Assembly (NCBI GenBank): GCA_028868305.1
Contig: JAGWUS010000012.1
Span: forward strand, 1 to 64,000
From: Burkholderiales bacterium
GTDB taxonomy: Bacteria > Pseudomonadota > Gammaproteobacteria > Burkholderiales > Burkholderiaceae_C
Direction of reading: 5' to 3'
DNA length: 64,000 nt
Below the pieces are notes generated by a model that made no database searches, was not told the DNA's origin, and worked only from the letters and a program-made list of their open reading frames with translations. The position numbers and the translations under genes are program-made. Shown in pieces: positions 3,284-39,219 of the stretch (the stretch's first letter is position 1; each line of letters begins with the position of its first letter).

Positions 3284-5050
3284 TCAATGTTCGGTACCCA
3301 GATAGGCGGCACGCACAGCGGGGTTGGCTTGTACTTCAGCAGGTGTTCCGCGGGTCAGCAAGGTGCCAAACTCCATTACCACCAGCTGATCGCACACATC
3401 CATTACCAGATCCATGTCGTGCTCTACCAGCAAAATACTCATCCCTTCGCCTTGCAGTTGCCGCAACACTTGCGCCAGCGCCTGCTTTTCCTTGTGGCGC
3501 AGGCCAGCAGCCGGCTCGTCGAGCAATAGCAGGGCCGGGTCGCAGCACAATGCACGGGCGATTTCCATGAGCCGTTGCGGGCCCATGGCCAAGTTGCCGG
3601 CTTGCTCGTGCATGAACTCCCCCATGCCGATACGTTCGAGCTGGCGCTGGGCCTCTTTCATGAGGCGTTGCTCTTCAAGCTTGTTGGTACGCAGCATCGA
3701 AGAGACCACACCGCTTGCGCCGCGGGTATAGGCGCCCATGGCCACGTTCTCCAGCACCGTCATATCGGCGATCATCTTCACGTGCTGAAACGTCCGGGCC
3801 ATGCCTTTGCGCGAAATGTCGCGGGAAGCCAGGGCGCTGATGTCGTCGCCTCGGAATGTCACCTGACCGCTGGTTTTTCCGAGCACACCGGTAATCAGGT
3901 TGAACGTGGTGGACTTGCCCGCGCCATTGGGGCCAATCAAGCCAACAATCTGGCCGGCAGCGATATCGAAGCTGATGTCATTCACCGCCACCAGACCACC
4001 AAACTGTTTGCGGATCTTGTCCACATGGAGCACCAACTCGCCCATGGCGGGCTTGCTGCGCGCAGGCAGGTCTACCGCATTCTGCCAGTCCACGGTGCGC
4101 GGCGGACGAGGCAGCCTGCGCGCAACCACCGACCACAAGCCGTCAGGCAGGTATTTGAGTACCAGTACCAGGGCGATGCCAAACACAATGACCTCGTAAC
4201 TGCCACTGGTACCAATCAATGCGGGCAAGGCAACCTGCAAATAGTCGTCCAGCAACTTGACCAGACCGGCGCCGACGATGGCACCCCACACGTATCCGAC
4301 CCCACCAATCACCGTCATGAACAGGTACTCGATGCCCATCTTGAGGCCAAAGGCCGACGGATTCACCGTGCGCTGGAAGTGCGCCAGCAGCCACCCTGCG
4401 ACAGACGCGAACAGCGCAGCAATCAGAAAGATGGTGACCTTGTAGCGGAAGGTGCTGATGCCCATGGCCTCGGCCATTTGCGTTCCGCCCTTGAGCGACC
4501 GGATGGCCCGCCCCGGACGGGAGTCCAGCAGATTCAGCAGTGCCACGGCACCCGCGATCACGATGGCCCAGGTCAGCACGAAAAAGAGGCGCCCCTGGCC
4601 AATGTCAACTGAACCGATGGACAGACTCTTGAGCCCCAGCAAACCATCGTACTTGCCCAAGGCATCAAGGTTGCCCATGAGGTAATACAGCGACAGGCCC
4701 CATGCGATGGTTGCCAGCGGAAGGTAGTGTCCCGACATGCGCAGGGTGATCAGGCCGACGATGACGGCACTCACCGCAGTGAGTCCAAGCCCCACGAATA
4801 CCGTGAGCCAGGGCGACAGACCGGTATTGAGTGTGAGCCAGGCGGTGGTGTACGCGCCGATGCCGACGAAGGCTGCCTGGCCAAACGAAGTCAGACCACC
4901 AACCCCTGTCAGCAGCACCAGGCCCAGGCACACCAGCGCATACAGGCCGATGTAATTGAGCTGCGCGATCCAGAAATCAGGCAAGGGAAGCAGCGCGATG
5001 ACCGGAACCGCGGCAGCCAGCAGGAGGATAGGGATGTTTCTTTTCAACAT
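3284..5050 (-). CDS. livM-livG: fused LivM permease - LivG ATPase of ABC importer
   Basis: One 588-residue protein joins two subunits that are usually separate. Residues 1 to about 325 are a LivM permease: several hydrophobic segments, the [17 protein letters not shown] motif and the EAMGIST cytoplasmic loop. After a short linker rich in Arg and Pro, residues about 345-588 form a LivG ATPase with Walker A ([16 protein letters not shown]), signature [15 protein letters not shown] and Walker B ([11 protein letters not shown]). The order matches the inner-membrane complex in which LivM contacts LivG. The start at 5050 lies two bases after the LivH stop, so the genes are translationally close. 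Such fusions are known in Burkholderiales. Confidence 0.95.
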
Positions 5051-32737: not shown

Positions 32738-34735
32738 CTATTGCTTTCTGCGCACTAGTCTAGATAGCCGCTCGACGCCGACCGGCGGCTCTGCCAGCCA
32801 TGGCAATACAAAGGTCTTTTTTGCCAGCCCGTTGGCAATGCGATCCACCTGACGCGCCTCGCCGGAAAGTCGGGCCCGGAGCAATGGATCACGTGTGCCA
32901 GACGCCAGCACGCTTTTGTTGATCACCCAGGCAAAGGGTTCTATTTTGGCCCTGCGCAGGTCGTTCTGCAGGGCCTCGGCCTGCAGCACCGGTGTCACCT
33001 CTGGTAGCGCGACCAGAATGATCTTTGTGTATTCGGGGTCCTGTAAACGCATCAGCGGTGTGATGATGCGCCCTGACGTGTGGCCTTCAAACTCCCGCAG
33101 CATCTGGCGATGGTAGGCCCCGGTGGCGTCCATCAGCAGCAGGGAATGCCCCGTGGGTGCGGTGTCGAGCACCACAAAGGCACTGCGGGCCTCACCCACC
33201 ACCCGGGAAAAGGCATGAAATATGGCGACCTCTTCGGTGCAGGGTGAGCGCAGGTCTTCCAGCATCAGCGCACGTTCCTGTGCATCCAGACCAGCGCCCT
33301 TGGTCGCCATGATTTTGTCGACATAGCGCTGGGTTTCCACGACAGGGTCAATACGGTCCACCCGCAGGCCCTCCACCGCCCCGTTGAGGGTACCCGTCAG
33401 GTGTGCTGCAGGGTCGGTGGTACTCAGGTGCACCGACTTGCCGCGCTGAATCAGCCCCAGGGCCAGGGCCGCAGCGATGGTGGTCTTTCCCACACCACCT
33501 TTGCCCATGACCATGATCAGACCGTGCCCCGCCTGCGCCAGTGCGTCGGCCAGCGCGTCCAGTCCATGGCCACTGGCGAAGTCCGGCACCACCGGCAGCG
33601 TGGCGGTGCCAACTGGAGGCCTGGCGTCCACCAGCAAGGTCCGCAACGCCGGCACACCCACGGTGTCAAAGGGGCGCAGCGGCACCTGGTCCTGGGGCAG
33701 CGCCTGGAGGTTCGCCGGCATGGCCGCCAGTGCCTGCGCCCCCAGGGCCTCCAGGGCGCAGGCCACTGCATCCTGGTGGTCGCTGGCGTGGAAAACACCG
33801 TTGACCACCAGCCTCTGGTTGTGCAAGCCCAGCGTCTGCAACTCGTCCGATGTGCGCGAGGCTTCCACAATGGCGCCCGCGTCGGGTCGGGTCACCAGCA
33901 CCACCGTGGTCAGTGCCGGATTGCTCAGGGCCTCCAGCGCCGCCTTGAAGCGGACTTCCTGCATCTTCAGGCCGGAGTGCGGCCCCAGACAGGAGGCGCC
34001 CCGGTCATTTCCGGCCAGAAAGCCGCTCCAGGCTTTGGGCAGGCTCAGCAGTCGCAGCGTGTGTCCTGTGGGGGCGGTATCAAAAATGATGTGATCGTAG
34101 TCCTGCGTGGTCGCTGCCAACAGCGAGGAGAACTCATCAAAAGAGGCAATCTCTGTGGTGCACGCTCCCGACAACTGCTCCCGCACGGTAGCGATGTCCG
34201 TGTCACTGGCATCAGCGTCCATTTGCGCCACCACACGTTGCCGGTAGGCCTCGGCGGCGTTGTCCGGATCGATGTTCAGAACGGACAGACCCGTCACGCC
34301 AGGGACAGGCACCGGCTGGTTGCTGAGTGCAACGCCCAGCATTTCATCCAGATTTGACGCGGCGTCGGTACTCACCAGCAGCACCTTACTGCCCGTGTCG
34401 GCCAAGCGCAAGGCCACCGCCGTTGACAGGGATGTTTTACCCACCCCACCCTTACCGGTGAAGAACATGTGGCGGGTCGGGTTCTTGAGCAGTTCCAGGG
34501 GTGCAGGTGTCAGCCAGGCCTGCACTTTTTCGTGCGACGGAATGCCGCCGGCGTGGACCAGTTTTCCATCCACCATGACCGCTGGGGTGGCGTGAACACC
34601 ATGCAGCCTGATCTCATCCCGGTTTTCAATTTTGGACAATGCAATGGAGACGCCCAAATCCGCTGCAACCCGCTCAATCATGGCCGTCATTGCCTGGCAT
34701 TTGCTGCATCCTGTGCCTAAAACAATGACCTTCAT
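32738..34735 (-). CDS. arsA: thioredoxin-fold domain fused to ArsA arsenite ATPase
   Basis: A 665-residue two-part protein. Residues 1-77 are a small thioredoxin-fold domain with a CxxC at C10/C13 (GTGCSKCQAM) and the cis-Pro segment HATPAVMVDGKLVHAGG; it is clearly related to the separate 77-residue protein encoded just upstream. Residues about 86-665 are a full ArsA with two ATPase halves: Walker A at 94-101 and 411-418 (GKGGVGKT in both) and DTAPTGH at 219-225 and 524-530. The three arsenite-binding cysteines known from E. coli ArsA are conserved here as C192 (GACTTEIASF), C249 (GASCLGPHSG) and C499 (SPCTEEVAIF). ArsA energises arsenite export through a membrane carrier, here presumably ACR3. 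No arsD gene is present, and the fused domain may take over its chaperone role (inference). Confidence 0.92.
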   Translation of the reverse strand: MKVIVLGTGCSKCQAMTAMIERVAADLGVSIALSKIENRDEIRLHGVHATPAVMVDGKLVHAGGIPSHEKVQAWLTPAPLELLKNPTRHMFFTGKGGVGKTSLSTAVALRLADTGSKVLLVSTDAASNLDEMLGVALSNQPVPVPGVTGLSVLNIDPDNAAEAYRQRVVAQMDADASDTDIATVREQLSGACTTEIASFDEFSSLLAATTQDYDHIIFDTAPTGHTLRLLSLPKAWSGFLAGNDRGASCLGPHSGLKMQEVRFKAALEALSNPALTTVVLVTRPDAGAIVEASRTSDELQTLGLHNQRLVVNGVFHASDHQDAVACALEALGAQALAAMPANLQALPQDQVPLRPFDTVGVPALRTLLVDARPPVGTATLPVVPDFASGHGLDALADALAQAGHGLIMVMGKGGVGKTTIAAALALGLIQRGKSVHLSTTDPAAHLTGTLNGAVEGLRVDRIDPVVETQRYVDKIMATKGAGLDAQERALMLEDLRSPCTEEVAIFHAFSRVVGEARSAFVVLDTAPTGHSLLLMDATGAYHRQMLREFEGHTSGRIITPLMRLQDPEYTKIILVALPEVTPVLQAEALQNDLRRAKIEPFAWVINKSVLASGTRDPLLRARLSGEARQVDRIANGLAKKTFVLPWLAEPPVGVERLSRLVRRKQ

Positions 34736-34807
34736 GGCAAATTACCTTCCAGCGAATTAAGAAAACGATTCGTGCCCACGCAGTACGCTGATCTGTTCAG
34801 GGCGACT

Positions 34808-35041
34808 TCATGCGGCCAACCATTGCTCAATTTTCCCCCGATTGGGCACGCCACCAGCATGAACCACCTTGCCGTTGATAACAACCCCGGGTGTACTCAT
34901 GACGCCGTAGCGCATGATGTCCTGCAATTCTTCGACTTTTTCCAGTCTGACCGTTACGCCTTTAGCCCTGGCGACCTGATCGATCAGTGCGATGGTGTTT
35001 TTGCAATTGGCACATCCGGTGCCAAGTACTTTGATATCCAT
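34808..35041 (-). CDS. small CxxC thioredoxin-fold protein (redox-active disulfide protein 2 family)
   Basis: A 77-residue protein of the MTH895/TM0996 type. CxxC is at C10/C13 (GTGCANCKNTIALI), and the cis-Pro region reads MSTPGVVINGKVVHAGGVP. It is homologous along its whole length to the N-terminal domain of the following ArsA fusion, including GTGC and KVVHAGG, so one arose from the other by duplication. An AGGAG site precedes the ATG. Proteins of this family are usually found beside permeases of the DUF318/ArsP type, as here, and are thought to act as redox or metalloid-handling partners. Confidence 0.9.
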   Translation of the reverse strand: MDIKVLGTGCANCKNTIALIDQVARAKGVTVRLEKVEELQDIMRYGVMSTPGVVINGKVVHAGGVPNRGKIEQWLAA

Positions 35042-35043
35042 GA

Positions 35044-35136
35044 TTACTCCTGTTCCATTTCGAGTAAAGCGGCGCTCTGTGTGGCCCGTGTACTAAGCAG
35101 GGCCAGGGCCAAAGATTTTGCGGATCCGAGTTTCAT
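35044..35136 (-). CDS. possible 30-residue ORF between permease and thioredoxin-like genes
   Basis: A short frame MKLGSAKSLALALLSTRATQ ending LEMEQE. A purine-rich GGAAGAG stands about ten bases upstream, 25 bases after the permease stop. Its stop is three bases before the thioredoxin-like start, and the ribosome site of that gene lies in its last codons, which would allow coupling. The sequence has a weak signal-like hydrophobic stretch but no family. It may be a leader peptide or chance. Confidence 0.3.
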   Translation of the reverse strand: MKLGSAKSLALALLSTRATQSAALLEMEQE

Positions 35137-35160
35137 TTTTTTAATTCTCTTCCGCTGAAA

Positions 35161-36213
35161 TCAAAGTACCGCATTGAAGACATATCCCACCAGCAGGATT
35201 CCGGTGGCCACCACAATGACAAATGTGGCAATCAGGCGCAACTTGAGCACCTTGCGCAGAATGATCATTTCCGGCAAAGAGAGCGCGATTACGCTCATCA
35301 TGAATGCCAGCACCGTTCCCAACGCTGCGCCCTTGGCCAGAAGAGCCTGGACGATTGGGATGACGCCCGCTGCATTGGTGTACAGCGGCACACCCAGCAC
35401 CACCGCCACAGGAACCGACCACCAGACATCTTTACCCATAAAAGACGCCATGAAATCTTCTGGCACATAGCCGTGAATCAAGGCACCCATTGCAATACCG
35501 ACCAGGATGTAAGGCCACACCTTGCCAACAATTTCACGTACGGAAGAAAAGCCGCCTTCAATCCGGTCGCCAAGGGTTGCACCCGCATCCTCGAACTGCA
35601 CTGACGTTCTGGGCATATCACGGACCCAGTCTTCCAGATAGTCTTCCATCCCCAGTCGGCCAATAATCCAACCGGCCACGATGGCAACACTCAAGCCCAG
35701 TCCCATGTAAAGCAGGGCCACTTTCCAGCCGAACATGCCAAAAAGCAATGTCAGAGCCACCTCATTGACCATCGGAGCCGAGATCAGGAAAGAGAACGTG
35801 ACCCCCAGCGGAACTCCAGCCTGAAGAAATCCAATAAACAAGGGTACTGCGGAACAGGAACAGAAGGGCGTGACGATGCCCAGGGTGGCAGCCATCACGT
35901 TGGCCACTCCCTCGGTTCGGCCTGCCAGAAGCGCACGTGTACGCTCCGCCGTGAAATAGCTGTTAACCATGCCCATTACAAAAACCACGCCCGTCAAAAG
36001 GAGGAGTACCTTGGGGGTGTCATAGAAGAAAAACTGCAAGGCCCCACCCAAATGGCTGTTGCGATCGACCGGCAGCCAGCCCGCCATCGTCTCGGAGAGC
36101 GGAATTAGGGTTTGGTACAACCCCAACCAGGTGATTGCGGCAAGGAATAAAAAGACAAGGGGCCGACGAACGGGCCAGGCTTTCAGGGAAACAACATGTG
36201 TATTCATAACCAT
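35161..36213 (-). CDS. permease of the ArsP/DUF318 family
   Basis: A 350-residue inner-membrane protein with about eight to ten hydrophobic segments. The signature TPFCSCSAVPLFIGFLQAG and the second-half repeat GVPLYTNAAGVIPIVQALL identify the PF03773 permease family, including ArsP, which exports trivalent organoarsenicals. The paired cysteines in FCSCS are conserved in this family. It is cotranscribed with an ECF sigma gene upstream and the thioredoxin-like genes downstream. Whether it moves organic arsenic, arsenite or another metal is not readable from sequence. The start may be ATG 36213 or 36207. Confidence 0.88.
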   Translation of the reverse strand: MVMNTHVVSLKAWPVRRPLVFLFLAAITWLGLYQTLIPLSETMAGWLPVDRNSHLGGALQFFFYDTPKVLLLLTGVVFVMGMVNSYFTAERTRALLAGRTEGVANVMAATLGIVTPFCSCSAVPLFIGFLQAGVPLGVTFSFLISAPMVNEVALTLLFGMFGWKVALLYMGLGLSVAIVAGWIIGRLGMEDYLEDWVRDMPRTSVQFEDAGATLGDRIEGGFSSVREIVGKVWPYILVGIAMGALIHGYVPEDFMASFMGKDVWWSVPVAVVLGVPLYTNAAGVIPIVQALLAKGAALGTVLAFMMSVIALSLPEMIILRKVLKLRLIATFVIVVATGILLVGYVFNAVL

Positions 36214-36295
36214 GGAGACGAAAAAAAATCCAAAAGGATGCAGGCTTGGGAAAATATCTTCATGGACCCGTCTGCCGGACTCGCCCCATACAAGC

Positions 36296-36838
36296 CTAGT
36301 TTTTTGGGTCTATCGGGGAGCGTGGCACGAAATCGTCCACCCGGCCAACTTCATCAAACTGGACTTGGCAAGCTTGCGTCATACGCTGACGCAGTCTCTG
36401 GCGTGCGCGCAGCAAACGCGATTTTGTCGCGCTGAGGGTAATCCCAGCCTGGGCGGCATAGGCTGTTTGCGGGAGCCCCTGCAAATCGCACAGTACGATC
36501 ACAGCCCGGTCCTCGGCACTGAGCTCCGAAAGTACACGTGGCAGGCACTCTATAAGGTTGTCTACCGCTTCCACCGGATCACTGAGAGACGGAAGATCCT
36601 CCGGCAATTCGACCATCTCACGCTTGACGCGCATGCGATCCGCTACTGCGTTGCGAGCGACTTGAAATAGCCACGCCCTTGTATTCAGGATTTCACAAAA
36701 TCTATTTCCCTGCTGCAGGGCTTTGAGATACAGATCCTGCATCATGTCGTCTGCATCCTGTGCCTGCCCCAGCCTGTGAAGCAGCCAGGATCTCAGCTCT
36801 GCGGCGTGCTGCTCCCAGGCAGTGTTGAGGCAATGCAT
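36296..36838 (-). CDS. sigZ: ECF RNA polymerase sigma factor, SigZ-like
   Basis: A 180-residue extracytoplasmic-function sigma factor. Region 2 covers residues about 8-75 (AQDADDMMQDLYLKALQQG, TRAWLFQVARNAVADRMR), and region 4 follows (LSAEDRAVIVLCDLQGLPQT, TLSATKSRLLRARQRLRQRM). The tail ACQVQFDEVGRVDDF resembles the C-terminal Cys-FD-G-V-D element of SigZ proteins. No anti-sigma gene is adjacent. It lies inside the ars operon, 13 bases after the glutaredoxin-type arsC, and its position suggests activation of metalloid-stress genes; targets are unknown. Confidence 0.88.
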   Translation of the reverse strand: MHCLNTAWEQHAAELRSWLLHRLGQAQDADDMMQDLYLKALQQGNRFCEILNTRAWLFQVARNAVADRMRVKREMVELPEDLPSLSDPVEAVDNLIECLPRVLSELSAEDRAVIVLCDLQGLPQTAYAAQAGITLSATKSRLLRARQRLRQRMTQACQVQFDEVGRVDDFVPRSPIDPKN

Positions 36839-36851
36839 GGACGCGATTTAC

Positions 36852-37289
36852 CTAGCAAGCAACGGTATTCACGCGTCTTCCTGTTGCATCCACAACCGGC
36901 TCTCCATCTTCCTTGGTGAATGCACCCCGCTGCGGCTGCGGCAGAATGTCCAGCACGACCTCGGAGGGACGACACAAGCGAGTTCCCAGGGGGGTAACCA
37001 CGATAGGCCGATTGATCAGAATCGGGTGTTGCAGCATGAAGTCCACCAAGTCTTCATCGGACCACCTGGCGTTGTCGAGGTCAAGCTGTTCGTAAGGTGT
37101 GCCCTTTTTGCGAAGCACATCGCGCACAGCCAGCCCCATGGCAGCGATCAGTCCAAGCAACTCGGCCCGGCCGGGAGGTGTCTCCAGATAGAGCACCACA
37201 CGCGGTTCTTCTCCCGTGTTGCGGATCAGCGCCAATGTGTTACGCGAGGTGCCGCACTTGGGGTTGTGGTAAATCGTGATGCTGCTCAT
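36852..37289 (-). CDS. arsC: arsenate reductase, glutaredoxin-coupled type
   Basis: A 145-residue ArsC of the Spx/ArsC family. The catalytic Cys is C12 in IYHNPKCGTSRNTLALI. The arginines that hold arsenate lie in PILINRPIVVTPLGTRLCRP. The enzyme reduces As(V) to As(III) using glutathione and glutaredoxin. It is 12 bases downstream of the ACR3 gene in the same operon, and a second, unrelated arsenate reductase lies on the other side of ACR3. It is slightly longer at the C-terminus than the E. coli plasmid enzyme. Confidence 0.95.
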   Translation of the reverse strand: MSSITIYHNPKCGTSRNTLALIRNTGEEPRVVLYLETPPGRAELLGLIAAMGLAVRDVLRKKGTPYEQLDLDNARWSDEDLVDFMLQHPILINRPIVVTPLGTRLCRPSEVVLDILPQPQRGAFTKEDGEPVVDATGRRVNTVAC

Positions 37290-37301: not shown

Positions 37302-38369
37302 CTAAGTGCGCTCGTACCAGTTTTTGCTGTGGTTGACGATATACACCACCAGCAACATGACCGGAACCTCAATCAATACCCCCACCACCGTCGCAAGCGC
37401 TGCGCCGGAGTTGAAACCAAACAGGCTGATGGCCGCTGCCACCGCCAACTCAAAAAAGTTGGAGGCGCCGATCAGGGCAGATGGGCAGGCGATGTTGTGC
37501 TTTTCACCCACCGCACGATTAAGCCAGTAAGCCAGGGCAGAATTGAAAAACACTTGGATCAGGATGGGAACGGCCAGCAAGGCAATGACCAGTGGCTGCT
37601 TCAGTATGGCCTCTCCCTGAAAGGCAAAGAGCAGTACCAGTGTGGCCAGAAGCGCGGCGATGGACCAGGGGCCAATTTTCGCCATCGCAGCATCGAATGC
37701 TGCAGTGCCCCGGGCTAGCAGCGATTTGCGCAACCACTGCGCCAGAATCACCGGTATCACGATGTACAGCACCACTGAGGTGAGCAGCGTATCCCACGGC
37801 ACCGTGATGGCGGAGAGTCCCAGTAAAAAGGCGACCAGTGGCGCAAACGCAATGACCATGATGCTGTCATTCAGGGCCACTTGCGACAAGGTGAACAAGG
37901 GGTCTCCACCGGTCAGTCGACTCCAGACAAACACCATGGCGGTGCAGGGGGCTGCTGCGAGCAGGATCAGTCCCGCGATGTAGCTATCCAGTTGATCCGG
38001 CGGCAACCAGGGCGCAAACCACTGGCGTATGAACAGCCACCCCAGAAACGCCATGGAAAACGGCTTGACCAGCCAGTTGACAAACAGCGTAACGCCAATG
38101 CCCTTGACGTGCTTGCGCACCTCACCGAGCGCGCCGAAGTCGACCTTCACCAGCATGGGGATGATCATCACCCAGATTAGCAGGCCGACGGGCAGATTGA
38201 CCCGTGCCACCTCCATGCGGCCAATGGCCTGGAAGACGCCGGGAAACACTTGTCCCAAAGCAATTCCCGCTACGATACAAAGAAAGACCCAGACCGTCAG
38301 ATAGCGTTCAAACACGCTCATGGGGGCACCCGTCGCCTGCTTGGCGGTCACTTCACATTGCACACTCAT
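37302..38369 (-). CDS. arsB: ACR3 family arsenite efflux permease
   Basis: A 355-residue membrane protein with about ten hydrophobic segments. LILLAAAPCTAMVFVWSRLT holds the essential Cys of TM4 in ACR3 carriers, and NFFELAVAAAISLFGFNSGA followed by VGVLIEVPVMLLVVYIV holds the conserved Glu-bearing late segment. It exports arsenite by proton exchange and may be energised by the ArsA subunit encoded further along. The full-length start at 38369 opens MSVQCEVTAKQATGAPMSVF, with an internal ATG as a possible alternative. It lies 12 bases downstream of the LMW-type arsC. Confidence 0.95.
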   Translation of the reverse strand: MSVQCEVTAKQATGAPMSVFERYLTVWVFLCIVAGIALGQVFPGVFQAIGRMEVARVNLPVGLLIWVMIIPMLVKVDFGALGEVRKHVKGIGVTLFVNWLVKPFSMAFLGWLFIRQWFAPWLPPDQLDSYIAGLILLAAAPCTAMVFVWSRLTGGDPLFTLSQVALNDSIMVIAFAPLVAFLLGLSAITVPWDTLLTSVVLYIVIPVILAQWLRKSLLARGTAAFDAAMAKIGPWSIAALLATLVLLFAFQGEAILKQPLVIALLAVPILIQVFFNSALAYWLNRAVGEKHNIACPSALIGASNFFELAVAAAISLFGFNSGAALATVVGVLIEVPVMLLVVYIVNHSKNWYERT

Positions 38370-38381
38370 ATCGGTCCTCGA

Positions 38382-38888
38382 TCAGGTTTTTGCCAATTGA
38401 CGGGCGCTGGTTTGCAGCACCGTTTGTGCCAGCTTCTCTGGTGGCAGGGAAACGAGCAATTCAAGACGGTGCTTGATGGCGTGCATGGTTTTACGGAACG
38501 CCTCCAGCTTCTGCCCCTCAGGTGCATTGCCATGGGAAGGATCGGGATAGCCCCAATGTGCCGTTGCCGGGTGACCCGGCCAGATGGGACACATCTCTTC
38601 CGCAGCGTTATCGCACACGGTAATGATGAGGTCCATTTGCGGAGCGTCTGCCCCGGCAAACTCGTCCCAGCTTTTGCTACACAAACCTTCGGTGGAGATG
38701 CCTGCCGTTTGCAGCACAAGCAAGCCCAGCGGATGGGGTTGCTGGTTTTCACGCGGACTGCTTCCAGCGGAATAGGCCTTGAACCGGCCATCGCCCAAGC
38801 TGTTGAGCAAGGCTTCTGCCAGGATGCTGCGGGCAGAGTTATGGGTGCACAGGAATAGGACGTTCAGGGGCTTGGTGTTGTTTGTCAT
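38382..38888 (-). CDS. arsC: arsenate reductase, low-molecular-weight phosphatase type
   Basis: A 168-residue protein of the LMW-phosphatase arsenate reductase group. The P-loop is LFLCTHNSARSILAEAL with the nucleophile C14. Further cysteines for the disulfide cascade are in STEGLCSKSWDEF and TVCDNAAEEMCPIWPG. The segment GHPATAHWGYPDPS is typical. It reduces arsenate with thioredoxin or mycothiol-like donors, mechanistically unrelated to the other ArsC in this operon. It is the second gene of the operon, seven bases after arsR. Confidence 0.93.
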   Translation of the reverse strand: MTNNTKPLNVLFLCTHNSARSILAEALLNSLGDGRFKAYSAGSSPRENQQPHPLGLLVLQTAGISTEGLCSKSWDEFAGADAPQMDLIITVCDNAAEEMCPIWPGHPATAHWGYPDPSHGNAPEGQKLEAFRKTMHAIKHRLELLVSLPPEKLAQTVLQTSARQLAKT

Positions 38889-38895
38889 GGCAGTG

Positions 38896-39219
38896 TTAGC
38901 ACTCGCATTGCGTGGCTGACTCGGTCAGGCAAGCCTGACCCTGACAGCAGTTCCGGGTGAGGTAAGCCAACACCGCATTCATGCGGTCGTACTGGGCACG
39001 GTAAATCAGATTGCGGCCGTTACGCTCTTGTGTCACCAAGTCGGCATGCACCAGCTCTTTCAGGTGAAAAGAGAGCGTGGTCGCAGCCACACCCAATGCC
39101 TCCGACAGGGCGCCTGGCGTCAAGCCGGCTTCTCCGGCGACGACAAGTGCACGAAATATTTCCAGGCGTGAAGCCTGGGCCAAAGCGGCAAGGGCTTTCA
39201 CCACAATTATTGATTCCAT
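38896..39219 (-). CDS. arsR: ArsR family arsenic-responsive repressor
   Basis: A 107-residue winged-helix repressor. The recognition helix region is GALSEALGVAATTLSFHLKE and the wing is LVTQERNGRNLIYRA. The E. coli-type Cys pair in helix 3 is missing. Instead cysteines cluster at the C-terminus: C91, C92, C97, C105 and C107, an arrangement like the Acidithiobacillus ferrooxidans ArsR, in which C95, C96 and C102 bind As(III). It is first in the ars operon and probably autoregulated through the operator directly upstream. No clear ribosome site precedes the annotated ATG. Confidence 0.93.
   Translation of the reverse strand: MESIIVVKALAALAQASRLEIFRALVVAGEAGLTPGALSEALGVAATTLSFHLKELVHADLVTQERNGRNLIYRAQYDRMNAVLAYLTRNCCQGQACLTESATQCEC

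Follow-up and report, generated by a model that had tools for sequence, protein, structure and literature searches.

Does the gene at 32738-34735 (-) encode an arsenite ATPase with a thioredoxin-like arm built into its own chain, and if it does, where did the arm come from, did it take the place of ArsD, and what might it do for the pump? The gene lies in a window of 64,000 nt, the whole stretch of DNA that was analysed, and is a single uninterrupted 665-codon frame with a GGAAGG motif, spotted by eye, 9 nt 5′ of the ATG. The initial annotation had read it as a thioredoxin-like domain joined to a complete ArsA, and this was confirmed by full-length relatives and by profile matches above cut-off: Pfam Thioredoxin_3 covers residues 1-75 (69.3 bits, cut-off 24.8), the MTH895/ArsE family TIGR00412 covers residues 3-76 (69.6 bits, cut-off 62) with a CxxC at C10/C13, and the ArsA equivalog TIGR04291 covers residues 86-649 (715.4 bits, cut-off 650). 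The thioredoxin-like domain (residues 1-77; 34505-34735 (-)) contains the motif C10-S-K-C13 (34697-34708 (-)) and is followed by a short linker (residues 78-86; 34478-34504 (-)) with a block pLDDT of about 71-74 in the AlphaFold2 model described below. Around codon 80 the frame was checked for a stop and for a frameshift; neither is present. Assigned by profile, alignment and structure match, the ArsA part (residues 87-665; 32741-34477 (-)) has two nucleotide-binding domains (NBDs). It also keeps both P-loops and the three cysteines C192, C249 and C499, as originally noted: in an alignment of 43 rows (the 665-aa protein, 41 of the 42 intact loci of the one-genome-per-species scan described below, without L058, and locus L092), the P-loops at residues 94-101 and 411-418, both DTAPTGH motifs and all three cysteines (43/43) are invariant. 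The source genome is 99.99% complete and has one full ArsA; across the whole genome, two Thioredoxin_3 domains score above cut-off, the fused arm and a free-standing neighbour.

The free neighbour, a 77-aa Thioredoxin_3 protein identified by profile matches (34808-35041 (-)), lies 72 nt from the fusion gene on the same strand. Together they end a one-strand gene order that begins with an ArsR-type repressor (38896-39219 (-), profile matches), an ArsC-like protein of the LMW-phosphatase type (38382-38888 (-), profile matches, under the TIGR02691 cut-off), the arsenite efflux transporter Acr3 (37302-38369 (-), 395.4 bits, cut-off 282.8) and a glutaredoxin-type ArsC (36852-37289 (-), profile matches), and continues with a SigZ-like ECF sigma factor (36296-36838 (-), 155.1 bits, under the SigZ cut-off of 168.65) and an ArsP_1 permease (35161-36213 (-), 255.8 bits). 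No arsD was found near the fusion gene.

The fusion is real and recurs in relatives. In a family sample of 299 genomes, 86 match the 665-aa protein at E ≤ 1e-20, and in 10 of these, the source genome counted, the match runs from residue 1 to at least residue 661 with no stop. When one genome was scanned per species, 395 relatives came up, and 42 of the 80 best have an intact, CxxC-bearing domain, which shows that the fusion is no assembly error; an assembly or frameshift artefact is ruled out by intact fusions in many separate genomes. Four rows with no single ORF holding both P-loops (L084, L100, L106, L157) and eight duplicates were excluded. Record names are mostly Burkholderiales or betaproteobacteria, and the few others, such as Schlesneria (L053), may be binning errors. 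Searches of order and phylum samples with residues 1-139 gave intact fusions in 2/399 and 2/398 genomes, the same two in both, namely the source genome and one other (G091) of the same family. Among the plasmid matches listed (60 of 2263, and 15 of 2229 in a search with residues 1-139), none is an intact fusion; the best listed plasmid match to residues 1-139, on an Ideonella dechloratans plasmid, has the thioredoxin and ArsA as separate genes. Matches on enterobacterial plasmids over residues 3-120 resembled a longer match, and the one inspected was a sigma factor-permease-thioredoxin group without ArsA.

Where the domain is intact, it is under purifying selection. The CxxC, pointed out at the start as a shared feature, is indeed kept, with both cysteines present in 46/47 full-length fused domains and CSKC in 41/47, 45 of the 47 having first been picked by a pattern that requires the cysteines and the other two (L046, L092) having been added by a profile search of the remaining rows. 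In L092, from Massilia, the first CxxC cysteine of the fused domain is lost. Median pairwise dN/dS (Nei-Gojobori, ungapped comparison; 345 non-independent pairs with ArsA dS <1 and domain dS >0.1) is 0.28 in the arm against 0.14 in ArsA, measured there over 250 codons starting at the first P-loop, so that the arm stands at about twice ArsA. An AlphaFold2 model built from 43 sequences (mean pLDDT 77.6, pTM 0.72) gives the arm block means of 79-90 over residues 1-70 and assigns low confidence to residues 239-253, the metal-site stretch that holds C249. The modelled ArsA part superposes on the closed Leptospirillum ferriphilum ArsA (9nbw) with a TM-score of 0.90 by target length, and the closest solved relative of the arm by sequence is MTH895 (1ilo, E=8.4e-14).

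The free neighbour is an obvious candidate for the source of the arm, and the initial annotation proposed that it had been duplicated locally and then fused. Over residues 2-77 the two domains share 43% identity, and their genes are adjacent, as described above. However, a tree of 75 thioredoxin domains places all 47 fused ones in a single clade (support 100/99, present in 200/200 bootstrap trees) on a stem of length 0.71, whereas the neighbour groups with the free rows (28, counting two copies of it), so that the two domains of the source genome are not sisters; moreover, 8/10 fused genomes have no strong free copy (52 of the 86 matching genomes were used for free thioredoxins). Local duplication is thus hardly credible, and the arm's domain has a single origin inside an ArsD-less ArsA clade of Burkholderiales. 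The neighbour belongs elsewhere: of 13 strong free copies in the 50 genomes that the thioredoxin and ArsP searches have in common, 11 have an ArsP match no more than about 1.3 kb away, and in 14/15 thioredoxin-bearing loci drawn from thioredoxin matches, seven of them hand-picked, an ArsP gene stands upstream in the same orientation at a distance of up to about 1.3 kb. As it groups with free, mostly ArsP-adjoining copies, whose CxxC is mostly CANC or a close variant, the neighbour is part of an ArsP module and not the source of the fusion. The idea that the arm couples ArsA to ArsP was also considered and rejected, since ArsP is present in just 2/10 fused genomes (51 of the 86 matching genomes were used for ArsP). 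Similar adjoining domains therefore need not mean recent duplication.

On the Ideonella plasmid, ArsP, thioredoxin and ArsA stand in a row with a thioredoxin-ArsA gap of 7 nt, an order that could be the starting point for such a fusion. The plasmid is no surviving ancestor, because it carries a free-type thioredoxin and an ArsA that is nested within the fused crown. Several Pseudomonadota share a grouping of three genes, for a sigma-70 factor (SigZ-like or other), a permease of the ArsP type and a free Thioredoxin_3 protein; it is present at 34808-36838 (-) here, in L164, L166, L177, L048, L052, L095, L122 and L178, and on a Citrobacter plasmid, and is a separate module. In L044, a short ORF at 4431-4628 (+), upstream of a cation efflux gene and a fused ArsA, seemingly joins the ArsP tail to part of a free thioredoxin and is apparently a deletion remnant of an ArsP-thioredoxin pair. 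The free thioredoxin of L145 has lost its first CxxC cysteine.

The history of the arm was followed on a tree of the ArsA core (106 rows, quick method, LG+G4), on which the ArsD-less clade has a support of 99. Of the 89 rows under the last common ancestor of the intact rows, 46 are intact and 24 show no trace of the domain; the others are nine remnants, seven suspected remnants, L092 with C10 lost, L090 cut by a contig edge, and one with an adjacent free gene. A single-gain model implies 30 losses on this only partly resolved tree, many of them on weak branches, and on supported branches alone the intact state must have changed at least 11 times, although change counts cannot separate gain from loss. 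It is the remnants that tell loss from gain. In a profile test, eight of them score 13.7-55.3 bits against a maximum of 9.5 among the 1467 shuffles scored. Set against the closest intact relatives, 189 nt are missing from L112 and 72 nt from L048, in each case in frame and flanked on either side by DNA that still aligns, and in L111 residues 1-34 survive with a stop between them and ArsA. None of the suspected remnants (L097, L101, L113, L115, L118, L094, L027) scores above the best shuffle, L113, which lacks 138 nt in four pieces of at least 5 nt, being equal to it; in a DNA test with 30 shuffles each, L097, L101, L113, L115 and L118 were above their shuffles (L115 and L118 barely) and L094 and L027 were not. 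Among the counted remnants, L089 was not above its shuffles in the DNA test and L078 was so barely (33 vs 31). Several of the remnants are from metagenome assemblies; L093, which recurs as L022 from a G-numbered genome, is from a named strain. The ArsA genes of two genomes of the same genus as the source (L031 from G217, L040 from G125) fall on basal armless branches apart from the source's branch, which suggests replacement or transfer.

The arm has thus been lost repeatedly, leaving scars, and it follows that the domain is dispensable and that ArsA of this clade manages without it. A stronger reading of the remnants and of the many losses under the single-gain model would be that the arm is a decaying relic that no longer matters and is on its way out. 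This is very unlikely given the dN/dS of the intact domains and their near-universal CxxC; what was found looks instead like a helpful but dispensable thiol arm.

It had been reported from the locus that arsD is absent, and this holds genome-wide, as no match to Pfam ArsD was found anywhere in the source genome. The link drawn between this absence and the fusion did not survive a co-occurrence check. Eighty of the 86 matching genomes were used for ArsD. In 29 of these the sole ArsA type is the classical one (49-55% identity to the query), and 26/29 have an ArsD above cut-off, whereas among the 51 genomes with the ArsA clade of the fusion (at least 64% identity) ArsD is above cut-off in 1/51, the one gene lying 12 nt from that genome's second, classical ArsA. 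Within the clade, the figures are 0/10 for fused and 1/41 for unfused genomes; the unfused G297 has an ArsD match of 22.2 bits, under cut-off and with an internal stop. Lack of ArsD characterises the ArsA clade as a whole and is unconnected to the fusion, which was rejected as its cause. Since ArsD is missing from fused and unfused members alike, the fusion is no replacement for ArsD.

Both parts of the protein have known counterparts. ArsA of E. coli R773 (1f48) and of L. ferriphilum (9nbl-9nbw) shares the two NBDs, the three metal-site cysteines and whole-length homology at 47-52% identity; unlike the fused protein, these have no N-terminal thioredoxin domain, the matches starting at residue 81 of the 665-aa protein, and unlike classical ArsA the clade of the fusion is without ArsD. 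ArsD has a thioredoxin fold, and its metal site is a CC-x4-C motif. It is encoded directly upstream of classical ArsA, so that the arm, directly before ArsA, occupies the ArsD position, and the fused-domain and ArsD (PF06953) profiles align over 37 columns in the C-terminal half with 93% probability. The Pfam Thioredoxin_3 model finds 1/3 ArsD proteins, an Enterococcus ArsD-family member (E=4e-4, 20.8 bits, under cut-off), and the ArsD cysteines, at residues 12-18, are near the place of C10/C13. ArsD is a separate protein, however, whereas the arm is part of the ArsA chain; PF06953 gives no match to the 665-aa protein at E ≤ 0.001, and seven ArsD proteins have an invariant C12/C13 pair and, in 6/7, the third cysteine of CC-x4-C, where the fused domain has only CxxC. 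On the ArsD model and the cysteine pattern, the arm is therefore not an ArsD. It is a member of the MTH895/ArsE family, which also supplies its best solved relative; unlike the arm, other members are free small proteins, in the examined loci mostly beside ArsP_1 permeases. The redox-active disulfide protein 2 that Castillo and Saier (2010, PMC2963123) list in ars operons is of the same small-protein type, and the accessible portion of that text describes no ArsA fusion, 'fused' occurring 0 times and 'fusion' twice, for membrane fusion proteins and in the title of a DsbD reference. In the accessible portions of PMC3954881 and PMC4435449, the words 'thioredoxin' and 'fused' are absent. The view that no protein of this build has been characterised agrees with the full-text literature, a scope with subscription journals mostly outside it, in which no description of a thioredoxin-ArsA fusion was found.

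What the arm does can be approached from these likenesses. A built-in chaperone or reductase arm, as first suggested for this gene, is plausible, and the best reading is an optional dithiol arm that acts in cis for the ArsA cysteine site and resembles ArsD in position and, in part, in sequence. The C10/C13 pair would act on C192/C249/C499 of its own chain, taking As(III) from thiol carriers and passing it to that site as ArsD, according to the portion of PMC2963123 available, hands As(III) to ArsA in trans, and it would raise performance without being essential. Such a hand-over is tentatively favoured over thiol reduction, donation to ArsC and a relic. It would fit the single fused clade with its conserved cysteines and constrained sequence, the invariant ArsA cysteines, the ArsD position and profile likeness, the division of ArsD between classical and fused-clade genomes, and the presence of Acr3 somewhere in 8/10 fused genomes (10 of the 86 matching genomes were used for Acr3 and ArsB). 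Against it, hand-over by an arm is not needed, because arm and ArsD are both missing from the unfused members of the clade; the arm conserves two cysteines and not the CC-x4-C of ArsD, and is less constrained than ArsA; two of the 10 fused genomes, G182 and G192, have an intact fusion and no Acr3 was found in them, ArsB being weak in G182 (25.1 bits, cut-off 22.2) and found in no other of the ten, G192 included. The metal-site stretch of ArsA, which the arm cysteines would have to reach, is modelled at low confidence.

The conserved CxxC and invariant TP motif would suit a redox role equally well. The arm might reduce disulfides among the ArsA metal-site cysteines and so keep the pump ATPase active in oxidising conditions, a doubtful but serious alternative: membership of a thioredoxin-like family with MTH895 as structural relative agrees with it, and a conditional need would explain the repeated loss, yet the partner cysteines bind metal and no sign of their oxidation was seen here.

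A third role is raised by the two ArsC-type genes in the gene group of the fusion. The arm could be an electron donor for arsenate reductases that delivers fresh As(III) straight to ArsA, and thioredoxin-like donors for ArsC in ars operons were proposed by Castillo and Saier in the available part of PMC2963123. This is unlikely in view of the context of the other fusions: among 34 well-flanked intact loci, an ars gene was detected nearby in only 11, and with none detected in 23/34, the arm travels with ArsA rather than ArsC, which again agrees with hand-over to ArsA. Gene content was taken from homology searches over all frames, which may miss a divergent ars gene, because longest-ORF calling in this high-GC DNA yielded false antisense clusters. 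Non-intact loci have an ars gene nearby in 14/24 cases, a difference from the intact loci (Fisher p=0.063) that reached no significance in six independent pairs on supported branches. Scanned neighbours included cation efflux, P-type ATPase, DUF302 and pyridine nucleotide-disulphide oxidoreductase genes. A DUF302 protein recurs near ArsA of the clade (L107 8050-8457 and relatives) in a cluster of six loci, four of them fused by a cruder label.

How ArsA is loaded with arsenite without ArsD is thus a question for a whole ArsA clade, and the clade offers material for it: a conserved arm in cis with a cysteine pair amenable to test, sister ArsAs from which the arm has gone, and natural in-frame deletions as ready-made controls. 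With some reservation, ArsA may twice have been given a thioredoxin-like partner in the same place, ArsD with CC-x4-C in trans and an MTH895-type domain with CxxC in cis, and the fused form would then be a self-loading arsenite ATPase. If so, the natural deletion series of this family, which runs from intact arms through losses of 24 and 63 codons down to traces, would tell when it pays for ArsA to carry its own metalloid-handling arm.
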